64,000 nt of DNA from Ensifer sp. Root278 (GTDB lineage: Bacteria > Pseudomonadota > Alphaproteobacteria > Rhizobiales > Rhizobiaceae): positions 565,365 to 629,364 of the forward strand of contig NZ_LMJJ01000040.1 in NCBI RefSeq assembly GCF_001429285.1, given 5' to 3'. The notes below the pieces were generated by a model, which had not been told where the DNA came from, searched no databases, and saw only the letters and a program-made list of their open reading frames with translations. Shown here one piece after another: positions 22,671 to 43,800 of this stretch (position 1 is the first letter of the stretch; each line of letters opens with the position of its first letter). Made by a program: the position numbers and the translations under genes.

Positions 22671-22988
22671 TCCGCATTCCGCTGCCGGGCGGGCGGCACG
22701 CCTGAGACACCACTGCCAGGCCATTGCGGAATGCGATCATCTCTGCTCTCCTCTGGACGTGCCGGGTGACGGCGCCAGACCGCCCGGGCGGTCGGACGCT
22801 TGCGGCTGCAATCGCCGGAAATGGCCGAGAAGCGGCCTGTCTCGCCGACTTTCCCGCCCAACCATTCCCGCCCAAAATCCGAAAGGTGTTTCGCGTTTTT
22901 TAGGCAAGCGCGATTTGCCCTCCTTCAGTAGCCTTTGCCTTGTCCCGCTGGAGACGGGACGCGTCGCAAAGGGATGGAGGAGAGACCC
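22671..22988. other. Gap before the permease, one long palindrome
   Basis: There is no gene. GACCGCCC-GGGCGGTC at 22778-22793 is a perfect 16-bp palindrome without a loop, more like a protein-binding site than a terminator. The rest is leader of the permease, which ends in the GGAGGAGA ribosome site at 22976-22983. Confidence 0.4.
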
Positions 22989-24485
22989 TTGGCAAGCATT
23001 TCAGAGGACACTACGCGTACCCAGAATCTGGCCCAGAATCCGGCCCAGAATCCCGAAGACGAACGGCTGAGCATCGGCGCCAACCTCGCCTATGGTCTGC
23101 AGCACGTTTTGACCATGTATGGCGGCATCGTTGCCGTCCCCTTGATCCTTGGCCAGGCGGCGGGCTTGAATTCCGCCGATGTCGGCCTGCTCGTCACCGC
23201 ATCGCTCTTTGCTGGCGGTCTCGCAACTATCCTGCAGACGATCGGCTTGCCTTTCTTCGGCAGCCGCCTGCCGTTGGTGCAGGGCGTTTCGTTCTCGGGC
23301 GTCGCGACGATGATCGCGATTTCAGGCAATGGCGGCATTCCGGCCATTCTCGGCGCCGTCATCGCGGCCTCGCTGATCGGTCTTCTGATCACGCCGATAT
23401 TCTCGCGCGTCACGCGCTTCTTTCCGCCGCTCGTTACCGGCATCGTCATCACCACCATCGGCCTTACGCTGATGCCGGTGGCAGCGTTCTGGGCCATGGG
23501 CGGCAACAAGGCGGCGCCGGACTTTGGCAGCACCGCCAACATTCAGCTTGCGGCGGTGACGCTCGTCATCGTCTTGCTGCTCAGCAAGCTCGGCAGTGCT
23601 TCGATTTCCAGGCTTTCGATCCTGCTTTCGATCGTGATCGGCACGGGCATCGCCTACGTCGCCGGCATGACCGACTTTTCGCAGGTGGCAAACGGCCCGG
23701 TCTTCGCGCTGCCGAAGATTTTCCACTTCGGTTATCCGACCTTCGAACTGGCGGCGATCATCTCCATGCTGATCGTCATCATCGTGACGCTGGTCGAAAC
23801 TTCGGCGGATATTCTCGCCGTCGGCGAGATCGTCGAGACCAAGGTGGATTCGCGCCGGCTCGGCGACGGCCTGCGCGCCGACATGCTGTCGAGCATCCTG
23901 GCACCTGTCGTCGGCTCCTTCACCCAGAGCGCTTTTGCCCAGAATGTCGGCCTCGTGGCGGTCACCGGCGTCAAGAGCCGCTATGTGGTGGCAACGGGCG
24001 GAATGTTCCTGGTGACGCTCGGCCTTTTGCCGATCATGGGGCGCGTCGTTGCTTCCGTCCCGACCTCCGTTCTCGGCGGCGCCGGCCTCGTGCTCTTCGG
24101 CACGGTCGCGGCTAGCGGCATCCGTACGCTGTCCAAGGTCGAGTACAACAACAACATGAACCTGGTGATCGTCGCCACCTCGATCGGCTTCGGCATGATC
24201 CCGATTGCGGCCCCCGGCTTCTACGAGCATTTCCCGGCCTGGGTCGCGACGATCTTCCATTCGGGCATCTCGTCGGCCGCCGTGATGGCGATCCTGCTCA
24301 ACCTCTTGTTCAACCACTTCACGGCAGGCAATTCCGATCAGCAGTCGGTCTTCGCCGCGGCAACGGAGCGCACGATCCGCTACCAGGACATCGCCCGTCT
24401 GCATGACGGCGACTACTTCCTCAACGGCAAGCTCTACGATGCCAAGGGCGCGGAAGTGCCGCTGATTGCGGCGGAGGCGCACTGA
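22989..24485 (+). CDS. NCS2-family nucleobase (xanthine/uracil-type) permease
   Basis: 498 residues from the TTG at 22989, chosen because GGAGG lies eight bases upstream; an ATG at 22974 lies inside the ribosome site. After an N-terminal tail with a 12-base repeat (QNLAQNPAQNPE) come about 12-14 membrane segments. The family signature is GSFTQSAFAQNVGLVAVTGVKSRYV, and LETSADILAVGEI matches the substrate-binding helix of XanQ/UacT-like purine transporters. It imports a purine or pyrimidine with protons or sodium. The next gene is a nucleoside/guanine-type deaminase, which favours a purine. Between them lie six tandem hairpins. Confidence 0.9.
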   Translation: MASISEDTTRTQNLAQNPAQNPEDERLSIGANLAYGLQHVLTMYGGIVAVPLILGQAAGLNSADVGLLVTASLFAGGLATILQTIGLPFFGSRLPLVQGVSFSGVATMIAISGNGGIPAILGAVIAASLIGLLITPIFSRVTRFFPPLVTGIVITTIGLTLMPVAAFWAMGGNKAAPDFGSTANIQLAAVTLVIVLLLSKLGSASISRLSILLSIVIGTGIAYVAGMTDFSQVANGPVFALPKIFHFGYPTFELAAIISMLIVIIVTLVETSADILAVGEIVETKVDSRRLGDGLRADMLSSILAPVVGSFTQSAFAQNVGLVAVTGVKSRYVVATGGMFLVTLGLLPIMGRVVASVPTSVLGGAGLVLFGTVAASGIRTLSKVEYNNNMNLVIVATSIGFGMIPIAAPGFYEHFPAWVATIFHSGISSAAVMAILLNLLFNHFTAGNSDQQSVFAAATERTIRYQDIARLHDGDYFLNGKLYDAKGAEVPLIAAEAH

Positions 24486-24507
24486 GCCGGCCCGATCTTT
24501 GGAACAC

Positions 24508-24831
24508 GCAATCCCGGGCGGAAGTCGCTTCAGACTTTTCCTGGGATTGTTTTGAAACACGCAATCCCGGACGGAAAACCGCTTCGCACTTTTCCTGGGA
24601 TTGCTCTGAAATACGCAACTCCGGACGAAAAACCGCTTCGCACTTTTTCTGAAGTTGCTCTGAGACCCGCAATCCCGGACGGAAAACCGCTTCGCACTTT
24701 TCTTGGGATTGCTCGGAAATACGCAACTCCGGACGAAAAACCGCTTCGCACTTTTTCTGGAGTTGCTTTGAAACCCGCCATTCCGGGCAGGAAGCCGTTT
24801 CCTGTTTTTCCTGGCGTTGCTCTCAAAACCC
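24508..24831. repeat. Six tandem 54-bp hairpin units between permease and deaminase
   Basis: Units start at 24508, 24561, 24615, 24669, 24723 and 24777. Each has an outer stem (GCAATCCC/GGGATTGC in units 1, 2, 4; GCAACTCC/GGAGTTGC in unit 5 and with one mismatch in unit 3), an inner stem (GGAAAA/TTTTCC or GAAAAA/TTTTTC) and a mostly shared loop CCGCTTCGCAC. Both stems change on both sides together, so pairing is preserved. Units 2-3 and 4-5 are near copies of each other, a 108-bp duplication. Unit 6 is the most diverged. The unit resembles a palindrome dispersed singly through rhizobial genomes; the tandem array is unusual. Confidence 0.9.
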
Positions 24832-24849
24832 AACAAAAGGACACTGGGA

Positions 24850-25455
24850 ATGACACAGCAGACCGATAACTACCAACTCCTCGATGCACTGCTTGGCACG
24901 ATGGAGCGCGGCATCATCCCGGCAACGGAAGCCGGTGTTGCTGCCGGCAACAAGATCTTCGGCGCGGCACTGATGCGCAAGTCCGATCTTTCGACCGTGC
25001 TCGTCGAGACCAACAACGAAACGGAAAACCCGCTCTGGCACGGCGAAGTGCACACGCTGAAGCGCTTCTACGAGATCGAGGGTACTGAGCGCCCGGACTC
25101 CCGCGATCTCATCTTCCTCTCCACGCATGAGCCCTGCTCGATGTGTCTGTCGGCGATCACCTGGGCGGGCTTCGACAATTTCTACTACTTCTTCAGCCAC
25201 GAGGATTCCCGGGACAGCTTCTCCATTCCGCACGACCTGAAAATCCTGAAGGAGGTCTTCACGCTGGAGCCCGGCGGCTACAACCGCACGAACGCGTTTT
25301 GGAAGGGCCAGTCGATCCACGCGCTGATCGACGGCCTGCCCGAGCCGCAGCGCAAGGATTTGAAGGCTCGCGCAGACGCGATCCGCGCGAAGTACGACGA
25401 ACTCTCCTCCACCTACCAGGACAGCAAGGACGGCAACGCCATCCCGCTGAACTGA
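24850..25455 (+). CDS. Nucleoside/guanine-type deaminase (cytidine deaminase fold)
   Basis: 201 residues. The zinc site reads as WHGEVHTL, with His as ligand and Glu as proton shuttle, and STHEPCSMCLSAI, giving the two Cys ligands. ETENPLWHGE places it near guanine and other nucleoside deaminases rather than CDA or tRNA deaminases. It would remove an amino group from a purine or related base in the cytosol. It follows the NCS2 permease on the same strand across the hairpin array, so uptake and deamination are probably co-transcribed. GAGGCCTGAAAGACGG lies after the stop, then a family A repeat. Confidence 0.88.
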   Translation: MTQQTDNYQLLDALLGTMERGIIPATEAGVAAGNKIFGAALMRKSDLSTVLVETNNETENPLWHGEVHTLKRFYEIEGTERPDSRDLIFLSTHEPCSMCLSAITWAGFDNFYYFFSHEDSRDSFSIPHDLKILKEVFTLEPGGYNRTNAFWKGQSIHALIDGLPEPQRKDLKARADAIRAKYDELSSTYQDSKDGNAIPLN

Positions 25456-25500
25456 GGCCTGAAAGACGGCCTGCGCATCGGACCATTTCATTGTCTCCTG

Positions 25501-25598
25501 CAGCGCCGCGCGTCCTATCAGACGCGCGGCGCTGTAGCGCTTTGAAGTGCTGCATGTTTGTGTCCTTCAATCGGCTACGATCGAAGGAAACATGCAGT
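25501..25598. repeat. Dispersed palindrome family A, copy with perfect first stem
   Basis: CAGCGCCGCGCGTC-CTATCA-GACGCGCGGCGCTG (25501-25534) has 14 perfect pairs. The second module has CTGCATGTTT/AAACATGCAG outside and TCCTTC..GAAGGA inside (25549-25598). It lies just after the deaminase and may end its transcript. Confidence 0.75.
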
Positions 25599-25700
25599 TG
25601 ATTCAATGAAATGGTCTATTTGTTTGAAAGATTGCGCATTCCTGCCGGCCCGAGCAGGTGATAGTTTCGCCGAAATAAAGTCACGTTTCGGGGGAGTTGC

Positions 25701-42651: not shown

Positions 42652-42778
42652 CAAGCAAACTGTTGAGCACGACGCTCGCAGTTGCGCGTTGCTTTCGACC
42701 TTGACCACGGATGTACTGGCACGCGTTTTGAGAGCGAAAGAACAGAAGGGCCGGAGCCGCGCGCTCCGGCCTTTTTTT
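42652..42778 (+). ncRNA. Candidate small RNA of about 127 nt
   Basis: It lies between a good promoter and a strong intrinsic terminator, inside a 452-base gap between two minus-strand genes. The only open frame of note is ATGTACTGGCACGCGTTTTGA (MYWHAF) at 42711, without a ribosome site, and a TTG-started frame that runs through the terminator. I cannot assign it to a named rhizobial sRNA family. A leader-peptide RNA is a second possibility. Confidence 0.55.
42749..42778 (+). terminator. Intrinsic terminator of the candidate small RNA
   Basis: GGCCGGAGC-CGCGC-GCTCCGGCC with nine perfect pairs, followed by seven T. The T-run lies only on the plus strand, which fixes the direction. Confidence 0.88.
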
Positions 42779-42838
42779 GTTGGGACGGGTTCGCAGGGTT
42801 CCCGGCCAGACCGCCGGCGCGGTTCCAGTACGCTTCCA

Positions 42839-43696: not shown

Positions 43697-43728
43697 GTTG
43701 CAGCGCTCCGTTTTGCCTGTCTCGCTCT

Positions 43729-43800
43729 TACCAGAACCACCCGGGGATGTTCTTACCAGAACACCCCGGGGATATTCCTACTAGAATACCCCGGGGATGG
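43729..43800. repeat. Three 25-bp direct repeats with a CCCCGGGG core
   Basis: Units begin TACCAGAAC at 43729, TACCAGAAC at 43754 and TACTAGAAT at 43779, each followed by (A/C)CCCCGGGGAT. Within a unit, GAA-yAC-CCCGGGG-AT-rTTC is nearly palindromic. They lie upstream of the 43-residue microprotein and look like an operator array spaced at about 2.4 helical turns. Confidence 0.7.

Follow-up and report, generated by a model that had tools for sequence, protein, structure and literature searches.

The stretch of Ensifer sp. Root278 DNA analysed here, 64,000 nucleotides of contig NZ_LMJJ01000040.1 (positions 565,365 to 629,364) and hereafter called the window, holds a gene for a nucleobase permease and, downstream of it on the same strand, a gene of the nucleobase deaminase type (Table 1). 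The 364-nt intergenic gap between them (24486-24849) contains six palindromic units, repeated head to tail every 54 bp, which together span 24503-24826. For the permease gene, the start codon is that of the list of open reading frames (ORFs), and for the deaminase-type gene no NCBIfam family matched at E <= 0.001. Common strand and spacing suggest that the two genes form an operon. The explanation that we favour, with modest confidence, is that the array arose by local head-to-tail expansion of a palindrome dispersed in rhizobia, between two older hairpins, and, less certainly, that its last unit, unit 6, acts on the transcript.

Table 1. Features of the window, with positions counted from its first nucleotide.
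Feature	Position	Strand	Evidence and remarks
NCS2-family permease gene, xanthine permease type	22935-24485	+	ORF list; Pfam Xan_ur_permease, 297 bits; NCBIfam TIGR03173 pbuX, 499.5 bits (cut-off 414)
Unit 1, divergent palindrome	24508-24549	+	22 nt past permease stop; fold -24.1 kcal/mol, z -5.1
Unit 2, type A (AATCCC/GGGATT, GGAAAA/TTTTCC)	24561-24606	+	nhmmer 61.1 bits; fold -19.6 kcal/mol, z -4.8
Unit 3, type B (AACTCC/GAAGTT, one pair broken; GAAAAA/TTTTTC)	24615-24660	+	nhmmer 51.9 bits; fold -11.7 kcal/mol, z -2.0
Unit 4, type A	24669-24714	+	nhmmer 56.7 bits; fold -17.9 kcal/mol, z -4.6
Unit 5, type B (AACTCC/GGAGTT)	24723-24768	+	nhmmer 55.5 bits; fold -18.6 kcal/mol, z -4.6
Unit 6, degenerate family member, hairpin CAGGAA/TTCCTG then TTTTT	24777-24819	+	30 nt upstream of deaminase ATG; fold -15.9 kcal/mol, z -2.05
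Zinc-dependent nucleobase/nucleoside deaminase-type gene	24850-25455	+	Pfam PF00383 dCMP_cyt_deam_1, 34.5 bits (cut-off 25)
Open frame through the array	24552-24869	+	
Open frame through the array	23322-24836	-	
ar35, alphaproteobacterial small RNA	42653-42780		Rfam, 70.2 bits
Separate 25-bp tandem repeat	43726-43799		3.0 copies, 85% matches

Tandem Repeats Finder (TRF) reported the array with a period of 54 (score 351) and with a period of 108 (score 424). The stronger signal at 108 agrees with a copying of units 2-3 as units 4-5, the order of units 2-5 being A-B-A-B, and both the six direct units and the second-order duplication described in an earlier note on this DNA were thus borne out. 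That note had also seen long hairpins in all six units and a mostly constant loop. Units 1, 2, 4 and 5 indeed fold far better than shuffled sequences (z -4.6 to -5.1), and units 3 and 6 do so moderately; in unit 3, one stem pair is broken (GGAG to GAAG) and the fold falls short of the -17.9 to -19.6 kcal/mol of units 2, 4 and 5. The loop is constant in units 2-5 only, since units 1 and 6 differ from these in stem and loop. Over the six units, 95.2% of the 83 cells belonging to 14 named stem pairs are paired. Two-sided stem changes were counted in 6 cells, compared with 2.6 in shuffles (reached in 5 of 500), and the covariation score of the array was matched by 2 of 500 shuffles. The two arms change together as had been claimed, although the changes fall in three stem pairs and not at two positions. 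The number of stem pairs with two-sided changes was not above that of the shuffles, 177 of 500 of which reached three, which speaks against covariation, and neither was the number of pair types (reached by 476 of 500).

The kinship with dispersed rhizobial palindromes that the note had proposed was supported in the genome itself, where the array DNA scored at 40 places out of 77 first-look candidates. On the 855-kb contig of the window, 30 units at E < 0.001 form 23 clusters, namely 20 single units, 2 double ones and the window array. Similar single units are patchy across the order, occurring in at least 13 of 150 genomes, this one included (E <= 1e-6); the figure is a lower bound, as at most 6 candidates per genome were scored. 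Units 94-96% identical to unit 2 were seen in a few genomes from distant families of the order, G228 and G339 among them, while most such genomes lack units at that threshold; this patchy spread may point to transfer. Many single copies adjoin a second, different palindrome. Examples are L012, L014, L016-L019, L021, L025, L028 and L029 (around position 1450-1560), in which the second palindrome is approximately GATCATTTCA...TGAAGTGATCT; it shares a common linker with the unit, giving a composite element, both outer ends of which are often CTAG. RAYT, the Y1 transposase of PF01797, was detected in none of the 16 genomes of the genus, while the control search detected it in 5 of 14 named genomes including E. 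coli. A REPIN or BIME accompanied by RAYT was rejected because the enzyme was not found in these 16 genomes. Units within the window array, as within the 32 arrays described below, also share one direction and are neither inverted nor alternating.

An ordered array of such elements had been thought exceptional, which was not supported. A search of the 16 genus genomes gave, among the matches listed and outside the target locus, at least 32 further arrays of 3-14 units each, picked where three or more units seemed present; they come from the same genome and from eight relatives (G001, G003, G004, G006, G009, G010, G011 and G014). In each of the 32 arrays read, the units share one direction, with periods of 49-61 and site-specific linkers, and similarity of both flanks groups the arrays into 16 orthologous sites. 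One site is common to eight genomes, including that of the window, with 3, 3, 3, 4, 5, 6, 7 and 14 units. It is a convergent gene pair (L171:2526-3290, with orthologues L174, L175, L177, L188, L189, L195 and L201), and the 12 middle units of the L171 array are identical. From the translations, we take the genes on its two sides to be a small gene adjoining an Hsp20-like gene and a tRNA (guanine-N7) methyltransferase-like gene. When 199 genomes of the family were searched, 10 matched at E <= 1e-20, three of them from the same genus and seven from six other genera, and one array of 3-4 units was read from each of these seven. In the window and in several other arrays, the linker resembles, by eye, the 5′ flank of the first unit, so that the copied segment seems to consist of flank and palindrome together, a pattern also reported for the SMAG repeats of Stenotrophomonas (PMC2613905).

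According to a simple codon-usage gene caller, used in place of standard annotation, 20 of the 32 arrays lie between convergent genes, and in 25 of the 32 (L171-L202) the 3′ end of the last unit is at most 3 nt from a stop codon on the opposite strand. The location of the window array is unusual, since in only 3 of the 32 do both neighbouring genes share the direction of the array, as they do here. Among 176 clusters of any size, 98 were convergent, 6 divergent and 6 of other kinds; the remaining 66 were co-directional, with genes running in the direction of the element in 35 and opposite to it in 31. The sample is uneven, as it includes orthologues and favours good-scoring copies. For comparison, the gaps of at least 30 nt on the contig of the window comprise 142 divergent, 302 co-directional and 125 convergent ones. 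On that contig alone, 11 of 25 were convergent, 10 co-directional and 4 divergent. The arrays also show a polarity, as the last unit scores better than the first against the family profile in 34 of 39 arrays (L171-L202 and L251-L257; one tie; Wilcoxon p = 7e-7). The window array runs contrary to this polarity, its last unit scoring lowest.

Pairing was also compared over the whole family, using one consensus for each of 109 loci. Two-sided Watson-Crick changes occurred in 51 cells, compared with 10.6 +/- 2.8 in 1000 shuffles (maximum 20), so that in array and family alike the pairing exceeds that of shuffles, consistent with a paired structure that has been kept or copied as units. The family shuffle ignores relatedness; yet the stems differ by site, as with GCCAGTCC/GGACTGGC in L253 and GCATTTCC/GGAAATGC in L255. 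In the pair counts, units with identical surroundings were counted once, which under-counts long arrays of identical units, and gapped units were omitted (30 of 251 in one count). Intermediates over the 109 loci comprised 44 G-T and 40 A-C cells. In an enlarged set of more loci with distinct consensus sequences, the G-T to A-C ratios by gene direction (15:7, 11:10, 22:26 and 1:2) showed no significant split. As a test for selection at the RNA level, elements read with their flanking genes gave 16 G-T to 7 A-C in a first set and the 15 to 7 already given in the enlarged set; the excess did not reach significance (binomial p = 0.13), nor did the contrast with opposite-direction sites (Fisher p = 0.36) or with convergent sites (Fisher p = 0.12). 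The arms may stay matched either through selection or through arm-to-arm copying.

An orthologous deaminase gene is present in 15 of the 16 genus genomes at 82-100% identity, the other genome having a 71% paralogue only. Unit 6 was found in ten of the genomes, including that of the window. Scored units at the locus, compared between related genomes with one genome per species, number 6 in the window, 5 in G002 and G009, 4 in G003 and G010, 3 in G001, and 1 in G004, G006, G011 and G014. Over the compared stretch, G004 is equal in sequence to Ensifer adhaerens ST2, G009 to E. sesbaniae CCBAU 65729, G002 to E. adhaerens SD006 and G011 to Ensifer sp. LC11. The earlier note had held that variable copy number without conserved pairing would tell against a retained structure; the copy number does vary, from 1 to 6 in ten genomes, and the pairing is conserved. 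In G001, both full units are, by eye, hybrids with a 5′ arm of type A and a 3′ arm of type B, so that one pair is a mismatch and another a wobble. Where unit 1 stands, a hairpin was obtained in all ten array- or remnant-bearing genomes when the orthologues were folded singly, with large sequence changes; two-sided changes occur in 3 of 10 consensus pairs and the covariation term is only -0.09. In the other five genomes the gap is 84-85 nt long and holds an unrelated hairpin, but no unit scores at E < 0.001.

Unit 6 behaves differently from the units before it. Across its 43 nt, 38 columns are invariant in the ten genomes, unpaired ones included, and the mean pairwise identity of 95.7% (45 pairs) compares with 71.7% at fourfold sites of the deaminase gene and 83.1% in the following spacer. 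Segments of 43 nt as conserved as unit 6 were found at 0 of 325 positions in the permease gene (median 0.777) and at 6 of 186 in the deaminase gene (median 0.891). Its end lies 29-30 nt before the ATG across genomes. A pattern search allowing up to 3 mismatches gave a single match per genome in nine genomes, and the tenth, G014, has a one-base gap within the unit. Its conservation is not explained by copying from paralogues, since no close paralogue exists and its likeness to the family consensus is only 73%. The hairpin is followed by TTTTT in nine of ten genomes and by CTTTT in G002, as read by eye. Hairpin and T run together suggest a weak terminator or attenuator, and unit 6 may be the regulatory part of the array. 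Among the roles the earlier note had listed, partial termination would be plausible for unit 6 alone, while a protein-binding array or a source of small RNAs gained no support from the analyses run.

We consider the pattern in the window array to be genuine and its main cause to be commonplace, namely tandem expansion of a dispersed palindrome at a site with two older hairpins. Units 2-5 would be products of replication slippage or unequal recombination in which one A-B pair was duplicated, and would have little function of their own beyond supplying extra hairpins. With less certainty, unit 6 would most likely be a weak terminator, or else a processing or 5′-end hairpin that sets the deaminase level relative to the permease, and unit 1 might shield the 3′ end of the permease message. 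We also put forward, tentatively and with more doubt than belief, that unit 6 is a dispersed palindrome which has drifted from its family and been domesticated as a fixed single-copy hairpin controlling the deaminase message, and that the expanding and contracting copies upstream retune the permease to deaminase ratio between species.

Several results weigh against the favoured explanation. Unit 6 was not called by a terminator scanner, and its pair counts are no better than those of shuffles, giving no covariation support. Last units that are likewise 89-97% identical between species stand at seven further sites shared by several species; those last units are 90-98% like the consensus, so that copying from paralogues could keep them. 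A hairpin in the gap (z below -2) was found in 10 of 23 wider relatives, compared with 28 of 74 control gaps of the contig (p = 0.12), a comparison that left out L037, L039 and L043 (gaps of 11, 19 and 19 nt) and the ten array-bearing genomes; a second control, of 3 gaps, was uninformative. Hairpins are common between same-strand genes of this contig, so that the mere presence of one in this gap is unremarkable, and its deep conservation between both genes was dropped as functional evidence because the control gaps fold about equally well. Pairing in units 2-5, finally, is kept better than pure slippage requires, so that the array could have a function.

Such a function is asserted by the view that the whole array is a functional RNA, in which serial hairpins block 3′-5′ exonucleases (or Rho, or ribosomes) and fix the permease to deaminase ratio, with unit number under selection; REP sequences inside E. 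coli operons reportedly act likewise, according to work by Newbury from 1987. The strong individual folds of four of the six units, the excess of two-sided stem changes in the family and the position between two same-strand genes are in its favour, as are the 26 REP elements and the 16 transcriptionally active repeats reported for S. meliloti (PMC2873474). We nevertheless regard it as rather unlikely, since unit number varies from 1 to 6 among close relatives, the hybrid units of G001 carry a mismatch and a wobble, the wobble bias by direction of transcription is not significant, and most sister arrays lie outside operons. A proposal that alternating A and B stems guard against mispairing between neighbours was dropped, as other arrays consist of identical units. 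The matched arm changes could instead be mutational, if template switching or arm-to-arm copying in a hairpin makes imperfect palindromes perfect at a single stroke and the outcome then spreads along an array by tandem copying. We take this to be a serious possibility, if not quite the one we would choose. It fits the near equality of G-U and A-C intermediates, which show no significant split by gene direction, and it fits whole arrays sharing one altered stem, such as the three identical GCCAGTCC/GGACTGGC units in L253, with stems differing by site. Other one-sided changes persist in 104 of 239 non-consensus cells at the locus level, so arm correction would have to be incomplete, and the conservation of unit 6 is left unexplained. 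This account is compatible with tandem expansion between older hairpins, and the two differ only in what they take to have caused the covariation.

Unit 6, or the array, might also be a site at the DNA level, either the operator of some purine-use regulator or a binding array for a chromosome protein. In favour of this, unit 6 contains CAGGAAG-CCG-CTTCCTG, which is nearly a perfect palindrome as DNA, and 38 of its 43 columns are invariant, with unpaired positions among them. The arm changes in G010 and G006 break this palindrome yet leave G-U pairs in the RNA, columns 16-18 hold five wobble cells against two unpaired ones in distinct rows (a small sample), and no sigma-70-like promoter was called in 22800-25700 by a scan that does not cover other promoter types; we therefore judge a DNA site improbable. 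To a coding role, in which readthrough of the permease stop would append a repeated tail, we give almost no credence. The genome of the window keeps this frame open for 127 codons past that stop. Of the nine other genomes, six close it after 2-23 codons and three after 52, 72 and 89 codons, so that it is not conserved among relatives, and Pfam has no family for the frame 24552-24866. Since 54 is divisible by three, open frames run through the array on either strand, and gene finders could call false genes there.

Among known systems, the closest in description are the SMAG repeats of Stenotrophomonas maltophilia, which are dispersed palindromes tandemly reiterated with flanking DNA at several loci, in unit numbers that vary between strains (PMC2613905). 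The present unit is likewise dispersed in the genome and reiterated with flanking DNA at several loci, the flanks being compared by eye. The SMAG palindrome is another one, with a GTAG tag and units of 50-103 bp, whereas here the units are of 49-61 bp and found in Rhizobiaceae, and most arrays here (25 of 32) end at the stop codon of an opposite-strand gene. Like the SMAG arrays, the window array is a repeat of variable copy number, here between related genomes, and not a unique device. RIMEs, Sm-repeats and the A, B and C palindromes of S. meliloti are, by their descriptions, likewise intergenic, palindromic and dispersed, and tandem arrays go unmentioned in the accessible parts of those sources (PMC2573895, PMC2245857, PMC2873474). 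E. coli REP and BIME elements, and the REP families tagged GTAG or CGTC, are short palindromes outside genes too; they occur singly or in clusters, and mRNA stability and termination are among the roles proposed for them (PMC3733652). They differ from the elements here, for which no RAYT gene was detected in the 16 genus genomes. A literature search by sequence found nothing, and one by words, which mostly covered titles and abstracts, gave no paper reporting tandem arrays of this element in rhizobia. Rfam had no match in the array at gathering level, the only such match of the window being ar35, and a known Rfam family for the array was thus rejected. Part of the model of the Brucella small RNA CI408 (RF02599) bears a likeness to units 2-5 read on the reverse strand, with a best E of 0.014 at 18 bits, over about 50 of 435 positions and far under the gathering score of 398 bits; this probably reflects a related palindrome inside the CI408 RNA.

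These results indicate that a rhizobial palindrome forms tandem arrays of variable copy number, similar to those of Stenotrophomonas, in genomes in which RAYT was not detected. The polarity of the arrays provides a handle on how such arrays grow. At the locus itself, the focus shifts from the conspicuous array to a single hairpin, short and conserved, that precedes the deaminase gene.
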